Shown: positions 8,333-28,558 of the stretch, one piece after another
How positions within the stretch are numbered: position 1 is the first letter of the stretch
Layout: each line of letters starts with the position of its first letter
From: Anaeramoeba flamelloides
Taxonomy: Eukaryota > Metamonada > Anaeramoebidae
Assembly: GCA_027625915.1 (NCBI GenBank)
Contig: JANTQA010000023.1
Span: 9,114,001-9,178,000, forward strand
Direction: 5' to 3'
Length of the DNA stretch: 64,000 bases
Notes under the pieces: model-generated
What the model saw: only the letters and a program-made list of their open reading frames with translations
Told to the model about the DNA's origin: nothing
Database searches by the model: none
Made by a program: the position numbers and the translations under genes

Positions 8333-11300
8333 GTGTGTATTTTTGTATGTTTGTTTGTTTGTTTGTTTGTAAATAGAAGTTAAAATAAATAATTAATCAA
8401 ATTGTCAACACAATTTACCAAAAAAAAAAAAAAAAATAACTACAAACTTTTTGTAATTCTGTTGTTGCTGCAACAAATCGATAAAAAGGGACCGACTGTT
8501 TAATATCATTTAATAATATTTGTCTAGAGCTTATGGAAAAATGTACATTTAATAAAGAAATCATAATTTCCATTAATTCTTCAATAACTATTGTGGGGAG
8601 ACGGGCTTGTGGTATAAATTTAAATTCATCATTAAGAGAATCCACATTACGATCAGTTCGAACAATTTTTACTTTTTTAGGTTTGTTTGTGTTAACGTCA
8701 ATTGGTACTCGTGTTTGAAATGCCTCTTTTAATTCCAAATAATGTTGTGATTCCTTAAATAATTGAAACGAATTTTTTTCTAAATAAATTATCATAATTT
8801 CTTGAATATGATCAAACATTTTGATTGTACATTTTAATTCTGATAATTTATTTTTTATTTCATTTTGAATTTTTGGTAAATTAATTTTAAATATTGCCCC
8901 AACATCAAGATACTTGTTATACAAATGAGTAGCAAAATAATTTATTGTCTATACAAATTAACATTAATTAAAATAAAAAATTATTTTTTGTTATAAAAAG
9001 TTATTAGTTAATTTAGAAAAAGTAAGTGTATATCTTGTAAAATAATTCTTTTGGAAAAAAAACAAAAAACCTAAATAATAATAATTAAAGAATTTTTAAT
9101 TTTAATAGTTGAGAATTATTTAATCAACAAAATTAAAAAATACCCCAAAATATGTTTTCTAAAGGATTTATTTTTATAAAATACTAAACTTAATTTCAAA
9201 AATTGTGACCCACCCAAAATCATAAAAAGAAAAAAAATATATATTCTTTGGTATTCAAAAAAAAACTAATGATTAAATCTGATTAATATTTTACTTTTTA
9301 AATTATTCTAAACATCTAAAAACCTGGTATTTTCAAAAATTAAAAAAAAATAAAATCAAAAACCTAAAAAAAGTTAATCAAAATCTTTGAAATGGGCATT
9401 ACGGATTTTTTATTACTGGAACTTTCACTGAAAAAAATGTTGAACTAGAAGATTTTTTGCTGATCAATTGATTATCTGAATTTTAAAAGATATGACAGAG
9501 TCTCAATTTTCTTAGTGATTATTTATCTTTTGGAAGATCCTTTTTTTTTTTTTCACATGATTCTTTCAAAATAAAAAAAAGAAAAATAAAAAAAATTAAA
9601 ACAAAAATTTGAAAACGAAAACAAAAAAAAAAGAAAAAGATTGAAAAAAAGCTCACGAAAAAAAGTATTAGAAAAACTAAAATAAGAAAAATATATAAAA
9701 AAAAATAATTTGAGGAAATTAGAAAAATTGATTTGAAGAAATTAGAAAAAATGATTCTGATCTAAAAATTGATATTTTTTTTGATAAGGATATGGAATCT
9801 TGGGATGGATGGACGCTGTAAAGGGAATAAAAAATAATTATAAGAATTGATAAACTTATTCAGGATAAGATCTTATACAAAGTGATCTTATTTTGGTTAG
9901 ATTTTAATGAAACTGGACTTAATTGGAGTAACTGAAGCAAATGAAATCAAACTGAAGTTACTCAAGTGAAATAAAACCAACTGAAGCGAATAGGTGCCTT
10001 ATTAAGCAATTTGAAACCGACTGAGGTGAGGTGAAATCAACTTTCCGTACAATTTGTCGAATCAGTACTTGGATTGTGTGAAATCTGCCCAGTCGGTTTC
10101 TTGGACTGGGGTTTTGATATAAAAAGATTTTTAAAGCTTTCAAAAAAATAAAAAATGCAAAAAATTAAAAAGAAAATTTCGAAAACGAAATACTTATTCT
10201 TCAAACTAAACACTACTTTAGAGATGTTCCCTATCTATAAAGTCCCAACTTAAAACTTGATAAAGTAACCTATTTCATTTGATCTATATTTGCTTAAATA
10301 TTTAAACCTCTTTATTAAAACAAATTATGGTTGCGATCATGTTTTTTTTCTACATAAAAGGAAACAACCACCAGCCCATTCAATACTTGTGGTTCAAAAA
10401 ATTGTTTTCAATAAAGTTTTTTACTTTTTTTTCTTTATTTTTTTTACCCTCTTCTTGTTACTTTTTTTTCTTTTTATTTTTCTTGTCTTTGTTTTAAAAA
10501 TAATTTTTTTTCTTTTTATGTTTTAAACAAAAGATTTTTTATATCAGCTATCATCTTGCCTACATTAATAGCTAGAATAAAAGAATCCAAATAAATTTAG
10601 CGTTTCAGATAAGCAAGATGTAATTTTGTTGAATTACCTCTCTCCAATAATAATAATAATAATAATAATAAACATTAAATTTTTTTTATTTAATGATTTA
10701 TTTTTTAATACTAAAATGGTTTTAGAATTTTTTTCGTTTTTAATTACAATATTGTACACAAAAACAAAAAAAAAATTTATTCTAAATTACAATTAAAAGA
10801 ATGAAAAATGTTTTTCTTTTGGGAAAAAAGATGATTGAATTTAAATTTCAAAAATTAAAACAAAAAATATTTTTTTGGTTCTGTGGTACGAACAATTAAT
10901 TTGAGTGTTTCGTAAAATTAGGAATTTTTAAATTTCAAGTTTTAAAAAAAAAAATAATAATAAAAAAAAATTCTTACTTTTGGTTGATTAGTTGAACTCT
11001 TAAATTTCTGTATATCTAAAAAAAATAATAAATATTCAAGATTTCCATTAGTTGATAAAAAATCGCGGAAATATTCTACTGCTATTGGTAATTTTAAAAG
11101 TAATTCAACTGAGTTTATCTCAATTCCAGATTTTTTCTTACTTTTTTTCAGTTTTTGTTTTTTTATTTCAATTTTTACAGGCTCTTTTTTGTTTTCTTTT
11201 ACAATTTCTCTTTGGTTTTCTTTTACGATTTCTATTTGGTTTTCTTTTACGATTTCTTTTTGGTCTTCTTTTACGATTTCTTTTTTGGTATTTTTTTTTG

Positions 11301-12608
11301 GTTTATTTGTTAAATCTAAGATTATATCAGAATCAGAATTTGAATTAGGACTTGAGTCGGTCTTGGAACTTGAATTGAGACTAGACTTAGATTGTGTTTT
11401 AGAATTAATGGGATCGTTTTTAACTGGATTTATATTTGAATTATTCTCTTCATTTTTGGAATTGGTATTTGTAACAAGCAAATTATTTTTTTTATCAATG
11501 TTTTCCTTTTTTTCTGTTTTAAGACTAAGGCCGTTGACGAGCGCCTTGGGTTCTTCGTTTATTATCTTTTTTTCTTTTGTTTTTTTTTCTTGGATTTGTT
11601 CATCCTTTTTGATAAAAGAATCAAAAAAAAAAATAAATAAGCACGATCAATTGAAAAAAAATTGAATCAGCAAATAAAAATCATAAATAAATAGAGAAAG
11701 ACTAAGAATAAACATAATTTAAATGGGATTAAAAAGAAAAGTACTTCTGAATTTAAAGCTGAAAACCCAACAGAATCGGAGTCTGAGTTATCAGTGACGG
11801 GGGCTGTCATTAAAGATCTTAATTCTTCTAATTCTAATGTTAATGTCTTTTTTTCTTTTCTTTTTTCTTGCAGTTGCAACCGAAAGGAATAGAGCCTTTC
11901 TTGTTGGGCAAGATTACTTTTTGTGTCTTCAAGTTTGCGAAGCTTTTTTAATTCAAATTCAAGTTTTTTTAACTCTTGTTTTGTGTTTTGGATTTCTTTT
12001 TCATTGGATCGGTAGATTAATTTTTGATAATTTTCTTCATCAACATCGATACCTTCAATTTTTTTTTTCTTTTTAATTTCCTTTCTTTTCATTTTTCTTT
12101 CTTCCAATTCTTCTGTCTTGTCGACCAGTATATTCCTTTTGTTGTTATTCTCTGAAATGATTTGCTTTAAGTTGTTTTGTGATCGTTGAATTTTTCGATC
12201 AAAATTTGCAGACTCCTCTTGTGATTCAAACTCTGAGATTTTCTTTTTGTGTGTCGCGATTTTCTTTCTTAAGTGTTTCAAATTTTGTTTTGTTTCCTTG
12301 TCCATTAGCTTTTCTAATTCTTCAATGTTCTTTTTGTTTGATTTATCTAATCTTTGTTGTGCCTTTATTAATTTTTCTTTTGCTAATTTATTTTCTTTTT
12401 TCTTTAACACCATTTTCTTTTTTGCTGAACGAAATTGTGCTTGAAGAGAAAGCACATGCTCAGAAGAAGTGAGTTTTTTTTTTTGGTTCGTTAATTTTTC
12501 AAGTTCGATCTTTTTGGTTTTATATTCTAAATGGATTTTTTTTAATGTATGCTTGCCTTGGATTTTAGAAAGATCTTTTGGCTTAAATGTTTTGTTTCGA
12601 AAAGTCAT
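7647..12608 (-). CDS. Coiled-coil / RGS / DUF547 fusion protein
   Basis: Four exons: 12608-11745, 11604-10978, 8948-8448 and 8291-7647, all joined in phase 0, giving 878 residues. Residues 1-288 are a highly charged coiled coil. A Ser/Asn/Lys-rich linker follows. Residues 450-578 form an RGS domain: the first half (VEYFRDFL, EYLLFFLDIQKFK) lies in exon 2 and the second (LYNKYLDVGA, FDHIQE, LFKESQHYLELK) in exon 3. Residues 625-830 are DUF547, recognised by AFWLNLYN, HSIIVNG, YIVGGMEFSLYDILHGILR. RGS domains accelerate GTP hydrolysis by G-alpha; DUF547 has no settled biochemical role and in plants is usually joined to a leucine-zipper N-terminus. The RGS domain is interrupted by a 2029-base intron (8949-10977); the other introns are 140 and 156 bases. 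Stop is TAA. The model is strong because domain continuity and phase agree at every junction. Confidence 0.85.
9170..9560 (+). repeat. Dispersed repeat family F, copy 1 (inside an intron)
   Basis: Matches 50700-51075 in the same orientation and part of 29930-30150 in reverse. Shared blocks include ATTACG(G)ATTTTTT, TTTCACTGAAAAAA or ATCACTGAAAAAA, AGAAGATTTTT and TTGGAAGATCCTTTTTTTTT. It lies in intron 2 of the RGS-DUF547 gene and helps explain that intron's size. Confidence 0.65.
9790..10110. other. GC-richer intronic block with short inverted repeat
   Basis: Within the long RGS-gene intron this block is visibly richer in G and C than its flanks. AACTGAAG recurs three times at about 9930-9990. 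GAAACCGACTG near 10013 pairs with CAGTCGGTTTC near 10088. No open frame runs through it. It may be part of a degraded transposon or a structured RNA; nothing decides between these. Confidence 0.35.
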
Positions 12609-20334: not shown

Positions 20335-22010
20335 TTTCTAAATTTTATTTAAAATTTTCAATAAAGAATCATAATTCTCATTACCTTTAACTAATGACAA
20401 AATAAATAATGATTCTTTATTGTGAAGAAGGTCTTTGATATTATTCTGATCATTTTTATTAATTTGAATTAAATCGTTAATTCAAATTATTTGGTTTTCT
20501 CTATAGAATGAACAGTCAATAAAAAATGATTGACATCTTCATTTATTACTAAGTTGAAATATTTTTTGTATAAATTACCATATTTTTATTTCATTTTATT
20601 CTTATCATAAACAATACAAAATCTATTTAGATAATTTGCTAGATTTATTAGTTTTAGCATGGAAGTGGAACCCTTCCATTTTAAATATTTTTTGTCGTTA
20701 GGTTTTTTTTAATTTAAAAGAATAGAGAAATAAATTTTTTTCAATTCTTTTGAATTCTGGAAAATCGTGGTTAGGTTTTCATGAGTTTTCTGTTTATTTG
20801 GTAAATCGATAGATTTAACAAATAAAACAGAAAACCTCAAGAAAACTTAGGCACTCTACGGCACTTGACGGCACGAATGTTTGTTTATATTGTTATTAAA
20901 TCTAATAATTTTTAAATATTCCTGACCTTTCGGCCAAGTGCTATTTATTATTATTTTTTCTCTTGATTGATTAAAATTTGCATTTAGTAATTTAAATTGT
21001 CTACTTTCGATTTAATATTTTTGTTATCTTTTTTTGGGAAAGTTTAAATTTTTTTGGATATTATCTACCAGAAGATTTTCTAATTTATTTTTGAGTTTAA
21101 ATCTTCTTTTATATATCGAAATACTTACTTGGTCTATTTTTGCTTCATTTTTATAAATTAATCTTGAAGAGTGTGTATTAAATTTTTAAAAATTTTGTGA
21201 CTTTTTTATTTATCCAAATATCTATCAAGTTGAAATCGTTTTGGGTTAGATTGAAAATAACTAGGCCTTAAAACAGTTGGCTAACAAATATCAATTTAAG
21301 AATTTCTAATTGTACTCCAGTGGCTAATTATTGCCGGTTAAAAATTATTTTGATTTTTTTATAAAATTGGCTTTTACCCTTTTTCAAGTTTTTTTTTAAA
21401 TGTTCCTTTTTTCAAGCCAAATGCCTAAATACTATTTTTTGAATAATTGATTTGATTTTATAGTTTTATCAATCTTTGGGTTCATTCAAAGTTCTTGAAT
21501 AATTTTAACAATTATTATTAACTTTTTGTCAGTATCTGGAATTTGTCCTTCCATTATTAAAATTAAGTCATCTGCAAACATTTGAACATAATGAACTAAA
21601 TCTGTTATTTTTTCAATTAAAAAGTAGCTGATAAATCCAAACATTAAAGGAGAAAGAGAATTCCCTTGATAAACTCCTATCCCTTCTTTTTTATAATATT
21701 TATGAATCCAAAAAATTGATTTTTTCATTTTTGATCTATTTATTGAGAGCATAATGTATTAGTAAATGACTAAAAGTAATCAAGGTATTTTTTAATATCA
21801 ATTGTAACTAATAAAAAATTTTTTATTTTTTTAAGTTTTTTAAGTTCAAATAGTAAATTTAGAACTGCAATTCAAAAAAATTATTTTTGCCAAAAAAACA
21901 CCTAATGATTGATTAAAATTATGGAATTTTTGTTTAATATCTTACTGATTACATCAACACAATAAATTAAAACTTGTTTTAGCATCTTGATAATACAAAA
22001 ACAAAAAAAA
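20335..22010 (-). pseudogene. Decayed LINE (non-LTR retrotransposon) 3' half
   Basis: Minus-strand remnants follow the order of a LINE ORF2. DIKKYLDYF (RT motif A region) lies near 21800. GVYQGNSLSPLMF and then QMFADDLILI (the QG-x-SLSP and FADD motifs) are in the longest open piece, 21486-21752. YLGIWLEKRN lies near 21440, then a Trp-containing segment near 20910. A C-terminal piece (YLKWKGSTSMLKLINLANYL, RFCIVYDK, NEDVNHFLLTVHSIE) at 20400-20690 fits the usual Cys-rich tail. Several stops and frameshifts separate the pieces and the 5' half is not recognisable. Foldback element I2 is inserted between the RT-downstream region and the tail. The ADD-type motif and YLGI rule out ordinary host genes. 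Confidence 0.8.
20695..20875. mobile_element. Foldback element family I, copy 2, inserted in the LINE relic
   Basis: Same family as 20000-20330, with GGTTTTCATGAGTTTTCTGT facing ACAGAAAACCTCAAGAAAAC around a short loop (GTAAATCGATAGATTTAAC) and the GGCACTCTACGGCACTT tail. LINE-like coding remnants continue on both sides, so this insertion post-dates the LINE. Confidence 0.6.
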
Positions 22011-22118: not shown

Positions 22119-25100
22119 TTAGACATCTTCATCAGCCGTGATATCGATTGGGTCTCCAATTTTAAAGATTTGTGTTTGCATTTCTTTTATTAAAAATTTG
22201 GATCTATCTGGGTCTTCAATTTCAACATCGATGACGTCTATGATTGTTTCTGAATTCAAGGTCATATAACGATGAACATTAGCTGTTGAAATTTCAAGAA
22301 CGTCTTGTGGCAAGGGAGAGTTTTCGAAGGCCAATTCGTCCATTGATTCCTCTGTGGGTGTGGAAATTTCCAAAAGATATTGGTTTACACGGTCTTGGTT
22401 TTCGTTAATGAAATCGTTTAGTGTTGCCATATATTCTTCCTTGACGCCAAACAATGTGCCATTGGCCAGGTTCATGAGCACCTTGGCGATTAAGATTAAG
22501 GTTCTAAAGAGGGTATCCGAGGGCTCTTCTGCGATGATACCGTAATCGTCACAGGCTGTGATCGCAGGGACGAAGTACCTGAGGATCATCATTCCGCCGA
22601 TCGCTTGGCAGATCCGGTCAGGGAATTTCTGCTCAAGGAGCTGTCTAGTGGTGCTTAAGATGAATCTAAATGAAGGGGGGATGTCGTCGCTGTGCGAAAC
22701 AATTGCCGACAAAAAGGATTCTGAGGCAGCCATTAAATTATATTTGTTGGAACTTTGCGCGCCAATCTCTTTGACCTGATCGGGGTCCAATTCGACTTCC
22801 AGTTTTTCTTGATCCTTGAGGAGATCGTAAATAGGCTGGGACAGTGTCCTATGCAAGTATTCGATTGCGCATGCCAAATGGCAAAAGGATGTCCACAGTT
22901 TACTTGCCATTGAATATCCCCGAAAGAGCAAATCGCCGTCGTCACATTCATTAATTTCCTTTTCGATAAAGTATTTCATTATAGCTGGCGAATCACCATT
23001 GGATTCGAAAATGTACAATAATGATTTTCCCAAGTAATCTGCGACCTTTGTTTCTGCAGCGATACAGAGGCAATTAACAAAATCCAGATTTTCTAGTAAT
23101 AGTTCTTGCAAATCGAACAAATCCCTCTTCGTCGATGACTTTCGTAATCTTGAGATTTCGTTATCAGATACTGAAAAGCCATCACCAAATAATGTTTGAA
23201 GGTCGTATATAGGCAAACAGAGGATATCAGAATAGCGATCCCTCTCGGAAAGTTTTTTGGAAACGAAAAATAGTAATAATACCAAAAGTACTCCTCCAAT
23301 AAGTAGCATTCCAACAAAAAATGCGATGAATCCACCAGTGCTAAGGCCAATTTTATCTGCATTGCTTTCAAACCATCCATTGGATTCTGATTCGCTTTGG
23401 CAAGTGGCCCCTGTAAACCCAGTTGCACATTTACATTGTCCCGTTTCTACGATACATTCGCCTCCGTTTTTGCATTCGATCGCATCACATAGATAATAAT
23501 CACAATATGTCCCGGTATATCCCTTTTCACATTCACAACTTCCATCCTCTTCCATGCAGACACCATTATTACATTTATCTGTTCCCTCGATACAATTTAT
23601 ATATTGGCAATTTGAACCAGAATAATTTGGAAAGCAGTCACATACCCCATTTAACGAGCATTTTCCTCTTGGTGGATCATAATTTTCTCCACAATTGATT
23701 GTATCGCAAATTCGAGTGTTACAATCAGATCCAGTCCACCCTTCCTCTTTGTCACATACACAAAATCCATTTTTTCCAGAATAATCACAGGTTCCTTGTG
23801 GATAAGTACAATTATCATAATTTTCCTCACACAAATTTAAGTCACAACTTACTCCTCCGTACATGTCATCACAAATACCTATTTTTTTTTTTTTAAAAAA
23901 AATGTATTTGGTAATTTTTTTAATTGATCCTTGAATTATTTTTTTTTTTTGTTTCTTGTTTTTTGTTTTTGAAACTAATAAATTCATTAAGAAAAATATT
24001 TACATTCACCAGTTTTATTCAAACAAGTACCATGTTCACATTTATCATCGGGACAAGTTAATTTAGAACAATATTCTCCAGAATATCCTTCTACACATTC
24101 ACAAATGTTATTAGTATTACAAACGCCATCATTTTCACATTGGTCGTTGTTAATACAACCAGCTATTTTTTAAAAAAATTATAGATTATAATTTTGGAAA
24201 TTTATAAAAAAAAAATAAAATTAGGGATTTTATAATTAGATATTAAAGAAAATTTAGGAATGAAAAAAAAAAAAAAAAAAAGGAATAGTAAAAGGAACTA
24301 GTAGAAAATAATAACTATCCATAGTGCAAAAAGACATAAAAAATTTTCAAGTTTTTATAAATTTATTCTGATTTCACCTTGCCTTAAAAAAAAGTGCCTT
24401 TTTTCAAAAATCATTTAAAAAAAAATAAAAAAAAATTTTTTTTTTCAATATGTTATTGTCTTGAAATTTTGAAGATTTTTAAGATCCTTTTCGTAATCAA
24501 AAATTTTTGGATATTAATAAATTTTTAGGGCTATTAATACAAATGTAAATCTAATAATATAAGATTGATCCAAAATAAAATAATTGTAAAATCGAACAAA
24601 ATCATAATTCAATAAAAGATTTTTAGAAAATATGGTGTTTTAAGGATCTCATATTCAATTTTGTTTTTGATTAACACCTTTTTCATTTGCTTTTTTTAAA
24701 AAACTTATTAAATTTAAATTCCAGTAGATATTAATTTTTGAAAATAATTTCTTATGTCGAAATTTTTGAATCCTATTTACTTATTGTGGAATGAAATCAT
24801 GATAAAGATTTGAGCAATGCAAAAAAATTAATATATTTGCTTTTTTGTGACTATGGTTTTAAAAAAAAAAAATGTGGATAAAAGTTTTATAAAGGGTTAT
24901 TTCAAACTGTCAAATCAACAGGTTTTAAGCCGTTTTATTAACACTTTCACAAGGTTTGGGTTCGCTCTTTTTTAAAATAGCTATATAATTTGTTTTTTTT
25001 TAAGCTAATATCTAATTTTAAAAAATTTTATAGTTAAAAGAGTTGCCTAAAATGATTGTTGTTGTTAATGAAAATGATTCAATCAATTTATCGGCCAAAC

Positions 25101-26402
25101 TATTCTAAATATCAAAATTTTCTATGAATAGTTAAAAAAAACTTTATAAGATTATTTATCATAAATGTTGTGATTTTGTAAAAATTAAAATCATAAGGGT
25201 TTTGAATTCTTTTAAATATTCAGATTGATCTTTTTTTTTTTCTTTTTTTATGAGAAATTTTGATCCGAAGTTCCTTTGGTGTGTCGAAATTAGTGAATTG
25301 AAATGAAAAGGAAAAAAAATAAATATTACAATAATATTCATAAAGTATATTTGAACCAGTAAATGAGTGTGCATCTTCATAAAAAGATACCTCAACCGAA
25401 GCAGAATATCCTTTGTTTCCACTGGGTGCCATACATTCGATATAAGAGTCTTCTACATTAATGCTGTGCGCGGTATCCACCGTTCCATTTATATTACACC
25501 ACCATTTAACAGTCATTCCTTCATATGCCCTTTCTGCGATAACAGATCCTGTGGCCATATTAACCCTAATTATATCGCCTTCAGCGCCTTCTTCTGGGAA
25601 AATTGATTCGATTTCAATTGTATAACTATATTTCACTGTTAAATTCATTGCACCGATAACACTGTCCCATCTATAACCATTTGGCCAACTAGTGGGATCT
25701 GCTGTATCTAATTCTGGTGTTGTACAAAGTATATTCCCATCAATAAGAAAATCATCGCGATTTATCTTTTTTATATTTTTTGGTAATTGATTTTTTATTT
25801 TAATATTGTTAATTATACAAGAATAATGAATAATTGATACAAAAAAAAAATTAAATTAAATTAATAGATGAATAAAAAGATGAATGAAGAGATGTATAAA
25901 TATATAAATTGGTAGATTAAATAAATAAAAAGGTTAGAAAATGTGATTTTTTGTTTAACAATCGAAAAGTTTTCATTTTATTTTTGAACTTGTCGAACTT
26001 ACAATATAAAAAATATTTTAGATAATGTATATTTTCTCAAATGGTTTTTATTTCCCAAATAAGGAATTATTCACTTAAAAAATTAAGTCCGCTGATAATT
26101 AATGATTATTTTTTTCTTTTTGATTTGCTCGATTTGTGTTATTCAAAAATAAAAAATCTAAAATATTAAATATACTGTTAAATACCAATTAATTTAAGAA
26201 AATTTTTAATTGAATTTCTATTTTTGTAATCAATAAATACAACTTTTAAAACAACTCAAGAGAAAGAGTCTTTTGAAACCAAAGCAATTTTATAAAGTTT
26301 CTAAAGATTAGTCCAATAAAATGGTTTACTCATAGTCACATAAAAAAAGTACTAAAATCGAAAATTAAGAAATAATTTTCAGATATTTATCTTAATTTAT
26401 CA

Positions 26403-26465
<63 letters not shown>

Positions 26466-28558
26466 TCTTACAAACTATTTAAGAAACAGATTAATATGAT
26501 ACAAACCACATTTTTACTTAACAAAGCAATTCTAGAAATAGATAATATTTTACATTTTTTAAAATTAATAATATTAAAAGAATAAGAACAGCAACATTTT
26601 TTATGAAAGCTTCTATGTGTAAAAATTCCAGATTCAGAAAATTAAATAAGGTATATCAAATTTTCTTTCTTTAATTTTTTTTTTTTCAAAAATTCTCAAA
26701 ATCTCATTTCTTAAGATGGAATTAATTTTATTAAAGTTTGATAGTAAAAAAAATTCAACCTAATAAAAATAAGAATACATTTTTAAAAACTAGAACATTT
26801 CCTTTAATTCTAATGAAAAGTTTAATCTCTGATAAAATTAATGACTCTAGAACCTTGAACATTTCATTAAAAGTTTGTTTTGAATGGGATAATGAATCAT
26901 TTAAAATTGAAACAGACCATTCTGTTATTATTATATTCTCTTATTTTATTGTGTTCAATAAATTGCCTTTTGTAGAAAAATCTATTTGAATTGAAAAAAA
27001 CATCAACAACCTGAGGGTTTAATTATTTAGTCTGTTTCTTAACCCTTTTGGAAAAAGCTATCCCCACCAACAAGAGTATTATAAATTTTGATAAAAGATT
27101 TCTTATTTACTAATAATCATATTTTGGTTGATTCTGAAAAAAAAAAAAAAAAAACTTTGGTATCGATCTGGTTAATACTCGTATTTGAAGAATAAATAGG
27201 AAAAAATTTCGCTTCATCTTTTCATTTTCGTTTTCAGAAATAGAGTTTTCAACTCAATAGATTTGTAATTTATGTTCTCTATTTATCTATTTGACAGCTC
27301 TTTTTTTTTTTTTTTTCAATCTATTGAGAAAAATTGGTGAACAAAGAAGCCTAAACGAAACTCAGATTTCAGAAATAAAGAAAAAAGATAATCGATCGAC
27401 GAAATTTTGATCATATTTAGATCTCAAATACCTTCATTCAAAATTCCGAATAAAATAATCGATTTTATAATGCGAAAGGTTTCCCCTCGGGGAATAAAAA
27501 GTTATTAGATGCAAGGTTTCTTATTTGCAACCAATTCTACGAGAAGAAGAAAGATTACAAAGCTGTTATCTGTTTTTTGAAAATGATCACTGTTTTTTAA
27601 TTTTCTGGGAAACTAAGATCAGGATCAAATGTTTGTGGAAGTGTGAAGTGAAAATATCACTTAAATTGGTGAAAGTGACGAAAATTTTTATCAGCACTTG
27701 GCTTTGTCCTTCAAAGATAATGAGAAACAACCCACACACCACAAAAAAAAAAAAAAAAAAAAAATTTAATTTTTTTCAGTTTACAAAACAAGAAAGAAAT
27801 CATATTTTTCGTTTGCGAACACAATTCAGCTTATTGTATTCCTTCTTCTTTTGACAATAAAAAAATAAAATTTTCCCTTTCAAAAAAAAAACAGTTTTTC
27901 GAATGAAAAAAAAATGAGATCAAGAAAAAACAATTAAAAATTAAAAATTTTTTACTCCTGTTGCAAGTGCTTGAGATGTGATTGTTGATAAGGATCCACC
28001 AAAATCCCGAAACCTAACAACTTCTGTGCTGTCACCCCATTTTTGCATTTTGTAATCGCCAGAACGAGAGCCAGATCGGATTACCTCAATATTGATCGAG
28101 TTGCTTTCGGTGTCTTGCATGCGAAAATAAAGATTACCATCCCAAACCCAATCATACCCCAAATCGTCAAGGTTCTTTTTGTGGTTCTTATAACTGTCAC
28201 GTGTTGAACTAAATGTGATGTCATCGATCAAGAGACTTGACCTTGGCACGGGTGGCAGATCAAAGCCAAAGTCCTGTAAAATGAAACTTCGATCAGGATT
28301 ATTGGACTTCACTCTGGTTTGTGCAGCAGTTGTGTCGTATTGACTCAGGTCCTTGGGCTCTGAGTATTTCATTGTTGGCGAATTAGTTGCTGCGTTTTCA
28401 AGTAGATCCCATCCATTTTTGTATAAAATATCCTCTGGAGAGAAAGAACTATAATAGTGGACATCAGACTGGCACTGTTCAGTCAGACCAGTACCAACAC
28501 AAGAGATTTCCACACGCAACAAAGAGAGAACAAAAAAAAAGAAAAAAAAACTTTTCAT
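22119..28558 (-). CDS. Transmembrane receptor with IPT/TIG and EGF repeats and a cytoplasmic RasGAP domain
   Basis: Four exons: 28558-27956, 25765-25330, 24162-24004 and 23878-22119 (junction phases 0, 1, 1), 985 residues, TAA stop. A signal peptide (MKSFFFFFFVLSLL) is followed by a beta-sandwich ectodomain (about 22-250; FGFDLPP near the middle, MNLTVKYSY at its end), an IPT/TIG domain (about 251-346; IESIFPEEG, C-I-x-G, YIECMAP) and six EGF-like repeats (347-565). Then come one membrane helix (579-605) and a cytoplasmic RasGAP (about 655-880) that retains LLFRGYSMASKL, with the finger Arg near 719, and MMILRYFVPAI, with the second conserved Arg near 833. The predicted role is ligand- or contact-controlled inactivation of a Ras/Rap GTPase at the plasma membrane. 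The exon 3/4 splice rebuilds an EGF cysteine codon (T|GT), a strong check. Introns are 2190, 1167 and 125 bases. Exon 1 could be a separate secreted-protein gene ending at TAA 27941, but phase and fold continuity favour one gene. Confidence 0.8.
26403..26462. repeat. (TA)n microsatellite
   Basis: About 60 bases of pure TA inside the first intron of the receptor-RasGAP gene. Shorter TA tracts occur at 8299-8320, 33141-33152, 33675-33692, 36064-36103 and 59818-59834. Confidence 0.95.

Follow-up and report, generated by a model that had tools for sequence, protein, structure and literature searches.

Can a protist receptor carry a Ras GTPase-activating domain of its own? This question is raised by a minus-strand gene of Anaeramoeba flamelloides, found at 28558-22119 of a 64,000 nucleotide stretch of contig JANTQA010000023.1 (positions 9,114,001 to 9,178,000 of the forward strand, assembly GCA_027625915.1), referred to here as the window. 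Receptors usually recruit RasGAPs via adaptors, and the well-known family of receptors with a built-in GAP is that of the plexins. The predicted product of the window gene has, in order, a signal peptide, an N-terminal ectodomain, a weakly Ig/TIG-like exon, six EGF units, a single membrane helix, a neurofibromin-like RasGAP and a short tail. It belongs to a family, and we consider it probable that the members are receptors, with an ectodomain that senses a ligand, a cell or a surface and a cytoplasmic neurofibromin-type RasGAP that inactivates a GTPase of the Ras family beneath the membrane.

Gene structure and predicted domains

Read on the minus strand, the gene has four exons, 28558-27956, 25765-25330, 24162-24004 and 23878-22119, which join in frame to encode a protein of 985 residues. 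All three introns are of the GT..AG type, namely intron 1 (25766-27955, 2190 bp, phase 0, GC content 0.22), intron 2 (24163-25329, 1167 bp, phase 1, GC 0.20) and intron 3 (23879-24003, 125 bp, phase 1, GC 0.14). The whole window is AT-rich, and the exons (GC 0.32-0.41) stand out from the introns (GC 0.14-0.22). An earlier note on this DNA had proposed a single 985-residue gene with three junctions, and this is borne out by the intron borders, the in-frame joining and the identical length. From the joined model, hydropathy and alignment with paralogs, exon 1 encodes the signal peptide (about 28558-28499) and an N-terminal ectodomain without a recognised fold. Exon 2 continues the ectodomain. 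Exon 3 encodes the first EGF unit and the greater part of the second (joined model and Pfam). The remaining EGF units, the membrane helix (23345-23247), a juxtamembrane part, the RasGAP (23042-22338), the C-terminal tail and the stop codon are all on exon 4.

The RasGAP assignment is certain. The Pfam RasGAP profile (PF00616) matches the joined model with an E value of 9.5e-32 (111 bits against a cut-off of 28.3), and it is the only Pfam match in the cytoplasmic part at E <= 0.1. Among structures in the PDB, the closest is the GAP-related domain of neurofibromin (E about 4e-33), followed by p120GAP, SynGAP and IQGAP. The two arginines of the neurofibromin LFRG and FLR motifs line up with R719, the arginine finger (LFRGYS, aligned with LFRGNS; 22920-22922), and with R833 (MILRYFVPAI, aligned with FLRFINPAI; 22578-22580). 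By sequence the active site is intact, and GAP activity is predicted. The tail beyond the GAP is about 72 residues.

A Kyte-Doolittle scan of the 985-residue model found two hydrophobic segments, the signal peptide (residues 3-23) and one membrane helix (residues 578-610), which has two lysines inside the end of the called segment. Six C-x-C units start between residues 367 and 548, before the helix, and a seventh, at 669, is cytoplasmic. Pfam recognises EGF_TEN (E 1.5e-22) and EGF_2 (E 2.3e-15, three stretches). The model thus has the features of an EGF-domain receptor, with EGF units followed by a single membrane helix and a signal peptide in the hydropathy scan. The signal peptide, six EGF-like repeats, membrane helix and full RasGAP with both conserved arginines named in the earlier note were all recovered.

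The same cannot be said of its IPT/TIG domain, which was not established. Exon 2 scored 14.6 bits with the TIG profile against a Pfam cut-off of 20.9 (E 0.032), and the full model gave no TIG match in Pfam at E <= 0.1. Exon 2 aligns with that of 10 other loci (21-44 % identity), and TIG was found at E <= 10 in two of the 11 homologous exons (best E 0.012; L033 and L034, which are near copies of L032, were left out). The anthrax-receptor Ig-like family was equally weak, on three of the 11 (best E 0.043). When the TIG profile was run on the whole 254 Mb genome, it returned no candidates and no matches, although this search was insensitive and also missed the weak match in the window. Searched against the PDB, a profile of exon 2 found no TIG at E <= 5; the three chains that it did find at that level, all of the nudC type (best E 0.025), were rejected as not credible. 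Exon 2 is best described as weakly Ig/TIG-like, which is unproven. Exon 1, the putative beta-sandwich of the earlier note, aligns with exon 1 of seven loci (L025-L029, L032 and L034; 20-42 % identity), and matches no Pfam family at E <= 1 and no PDB profile at E <= 5.

Membrane RasGAPs in the genome

The genome searched was the 254 Mb, 76-contig assembly. Use of the first 346 residues as query gave 16 matches, two of which are the window gene itself. With the membrane-plus-GAP part as query there were 102 matches (264 candidates, of which 102 were scored), and the seven that score highest (353-904 bits) are EGF-type genes, namely the window gene and six paralogs with EGF units, a membrane helix and a RasGAP: C11 (L025), C24 13.09M (L026), C37 2.38M (L027), C75 (L028), C29 (L029) and C48 (L043). 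In each paralog EGF units, helix and RasGAP are in one reading frame, and this frame holds all the EGF units in L028 (795 codons), L029 (795) and L043 (749). No splice choice is therefore involved in placing these parts together in the last three. Intron 2 is missing from L028 and L029, where the reading frame is continuous. In the window gene and L025-L029, the six genes covered by this comparison, exon 1 lies ahead of exon 2, and the two are separated by a phase-0 GT..AG intron at the identical aligned place (judged by eye). This intron is shortest in L029 (about 0.16 kb) and exceeds 2 kb in the window gene and in L025. Within the helix-bearing frame, to which the count was confined, the seven EGF-type proteins have 20-42 cysteines before the helix and 3-8 after it.

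The next two matches, L045 (155 bits, aligned from query residue 17) and L046 (138 bits, from residue 6), are single-frame membrane RasGAPs of 968 and 1004 codons with one membrane helix and a different ectodomain. This ectodomain is cysteine-poor (5 of 575 residues and 3 of 590, respectively) and has no Pfam match at E <= 1. The genome thus contains at least nine membrane RasGAPs, seven EGF-type and two with the other ectodomain; this is a lower bound because inspection covered only a minority of the other RasGAP matches. The receptor-like transmembrane RasGAP claimed in the earlier note is upheld, and as a member of a family it is a stronger case than a single gene. Of the eight membrane RasGAPs whose C-terminus was covered, seven end in V or I (e.g. 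EDV, TKI, TII; 22122-22145 in the window). These recall PDZ-binding ends, though this may be chance.

Both arginines are kept in seven of the nine, including the window gene, in a nine-row alignment. L026 (5683-7347, plus strand) and L027 (2694-4355, minus strand) have a lysine at the arginine finger and an FLR motif without its arginine, and are candidate pseudo-GAPs under purifying selection.

Ratios of non-synonymous to synonymous change (dN/dS) were calculated pairwise with a simple Nei-Gojobori script. For the GAP part they were 0.041 (L028/L029), 0.086 (window/L025), 0.103 (L026/L027) and 0.176 (L045/L046). For exon 2 they were 0.22 (L028/L029), 0.40 (window/L025) and 0.19 (L026/L027), and for exon 1 0.30 (L028/L029) and 0.22 (L026/L027), the window/L025 value not being computable. 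The EGF part gave 0.20 for L028/L029. The sound pair is L028/L029; values for window/L025 (GAP dS 2.1, saturated), L045/L046 and exons 1 and 2 of L026/L027 are rough (dS > 1.3). Overall, the three EGF-type pairs give 0.04-0.10 for the GAP against 0.19-0.40 for the ectodomain exons where computable. A conserved cytoplasmic part with a faster-changing outside is, as read from these ratios, the pattern of a receptor family. The same pattern suggests that the pseudo-GAP pair is retained and not decaying.

A tree was built from 21 RasGAP rows of this genome. In it the seven EGF-type genes join two cytosolic proteins, L047 and L048, and L045 and L046 fall among other cytosolic rows. L001, L002, L003, L007, L008, L044 and L049 were left out of this tree, as were L022 and L023, which are cuts of the L028 and L029 genes. 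A single change of the membrane label does not account for all nine membrane RasGAPs, as the label needs two changes on this tree and 0 % of 200 bootstrap trees had one. Because the root is not fixed, GAP and membrane part may have been joined twice, or joined once with losses afterwards.

Alternative readings and known systems

If the proteins are receptors, they would be type I membrane proteins at the cell surface, whose N-terminal ectodomain, weakly Ig-like exon and EGF units make contact with another cell, with a surface or with a ligand. Binding would alter the activity or the place of the GAP, which would lower Ras-GTP or Rap-GTP, with Ras the presumed target rather than Rap, at the contacted patch of membrane. 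In amoeboid cells this could damp protrusion or cup formation, as suggested by the role of Dictyostelium IqgC (PMC12871552). The pseudo-GAP members may bind Ras in its active state and leave the GTP unhydrolysed.

Several points weigh against the receptor reading. The window gene model is a prediction from sequence, and its signal peptide and helix were called by a hydropathy scan and not by a trained predictor. The net charge is -2 in the 15 residues after the called helix and likewise -2 in the 15 before it, and the charge rule is weak here. EGF is the sole recognised ligand-binding fold of the predicted ectodomain. For L045 and L046, the start and signal peptide lie outside the stretches examined. 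Finally, two of the nine members lack both arginines, so that GAP catalysis is not the job of every member.

The strongest alternative, to which we give about one chance in five, is that these are mainly adhesion or matrix-binding proteins with a constitutively active RasGAP, and that the ectodomain merely places the GAP at membrane patches such as cups or contacts, with no switching by a ligand. The EGF-rich ectodomain is consistent with this, as are six paralogous loci, L030-L035, that share exon 2 with the family but have no GAP; their 4-29 EGF-type units are followed by a short hydrophobic tail that runs up to the stop codon. As exon 2 and EGF units exist there without a GAP, the ectodomain is evidently useful on its own. 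Nothing speaks directly against this alternative, which differs from the receptor reading in regulation alone. The hydrophobic tails look like glycosylphosphatidylinositol (GPI) signals, and in a receptor system the GPI-like paralogs may serve as ligands, co-receptors or decoys. Three of the six occupy a stretch of about 24 kb on C33, and two others a stretch of about 25 kb on C37; near copies lie close together at both places, and one of the six has 29 EGF-type units.

A non-enzymatic GAP part that binds Ras or Rap as a scaffold, as in IQGAPs, is improbable. L026 and L027, with a lysine finger and neither arginine, have nevertheless kept their GAP part under purifying selection (dN/dS 0.10), as a scaffold would, but the other seven members retain both arginines. 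That the model fuses neighbouring genes and no receptor RasGAP exists is very improbable. Introns 1 and 2 of the predicted gene are long, but exon 4 of the window gene encodes EGF units together with the helix and the RasGAP, L028, L029 and L043 each have these parts in a single frame, and the six genes compared agree in exon order and in the phase of intron 1.

The receptor reading invites comparison with plexins, which are found in animals and choanoflagellates. Like these, the window protein is predicted to be a single-pass receptor with a cytoplasmic RasGAP-type domain and possibly an Ig-like TIG domain outside. Unlike plexin, it has EGF units in place of Sema and PSI, and its GAP is nearest to neurofibromin among solved structures. 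The plexin cytoplasmic GAP carries an inserted GTPase-binding domain, and no Sema, PSI or plexin cytoplasmic profile matched the 985-residue model at E <= 0.1. The "independent plexin-like solution" of the earlier note therefore holds as an analogy, but the part of it that draws on TIG is not established. We regard the family as plexin-like in logic and not as plexins. Dictyostelium Tgr and ComC surface proteins have ectodomains of the TIG (repeat) and EGF type, and the window protein resembles them in having an EGF-type ectodomain in an amoeboid protist. The TIG domain, on which the comparisons with both plexin and Tgr/ComC partly depend, was not established.

Neurofibromin is a large non-receptor protein with a Sec14-PH module after its GAP domain. 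The window protein is like it in the GAP part and its two arginines, and unlike it in that the GAP sits after a membrane helix and EGF units, with no Pfam match to Sec14-PH following it. By sequence rank the GAP is of the neurofibromin type, and the protein is not a neurofibromin.

IQGAPs have a threonine at the arginine finger and an altered FLR motif (PMC12871552), and the loss in L026 and L027 is similar to theirs. Dictyostelium IqgC retains the finger and is located at macropinocytic cups; unlike the window protein, it is not described as a receptor in the available portion of PMC12871552. According to a legend in that paper, the C. fasciculata IqgC orthologue has an extra ABC-transporter membrane domain. 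Plexins are listed there as one of six human RasGAP groups. The available portion of PMC12821622 holds nothing on a Tgr-RapGAP link, and no paper on a receptor or transmembrane RasGAP was found in open-licence PMC.

A wider proposal, which we put forward tentatively and regard as doubtful, is that A. flamelloides has an independently evolved receptor-RasGAP system made up of active receptors, pseudo-GAP receptors and GPI-anchored proteins with the same ectodomain, which acts in contact or recognition to turn Ras or Rap off, and in which GAP and ectodomain were joined perhaps twice. If true, a second, separately assembled receptor-GAP family, with an intact Ras-type site, pseudo-GAPs and GAP-free paralogs, would provide a comparison for the direct ending of Ras signalling, and would show whether receptor-borne RasGAP logic arises easily.

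Other RasGAP matches and features of the window

The RasGAP and RasGEF families are hugely expanded in this genome. At least 228 RasGAP profile matches (299 candidates, 150 scored) and at least 150 RasGEF matches (304 candidates, 150 scored) were found; these counts are of exon-level matches and are lower bounds. With such numbers the genome offers much material for work on the control of Ras. Among the matches are giant frames, uninterrupted over 2000-3200 codons, with a C-terminal RasGAP. Seven (L036-L042) were inspected and, as possible receptors, rejected and read as cytosolic. At the threshold chosen for the hydropathy scan, six of them show no hydrophobic segment other than in the GAP region, and L037 has one near the start of the frame. 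Pfam scans of the C-terminal 1000-1160 residues of four giant frames found RasGAP in all four and PH in three (one below the cut-off). L047, L048 and L049, whose alignments lie close to the query's membrane end, were rejected as receptors for having no helix before the GAP. No receptor layout was seen in the short stretches L001-L008, where the segments in L001-L003 are within or just after the GAP stretch.

Two further profiles were run on the genome. That for class II ribonucleotide reductase gave four matches, the best of which (33.5 bits) is far under the cut-off of 399.95. The ribosomal S8 profile gave 16 matches, which fits A. flamelloides, for which PMC11550330 reports over 1100 genes for ribosomal proteins.

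Elsewhere in the window, a reverse-transcriptase-like fragment (21486-21758, minus strand; E 4e-4, below the Pfam cut-off) lies just downstream of the RasGAP gene, and an RGS-like fragment (10942-11646, minus strand) scores 23.8 bits against a Pfam cut-off of 23.9. On the plus strand, 55086-58028 matches a C2 domain, the CEP76 peptidase-like domain and the CEP76 C-terminal domain in one frame. By these matches the frame is a centriole-type gene, and perhaps a hint of a flagellated stage.

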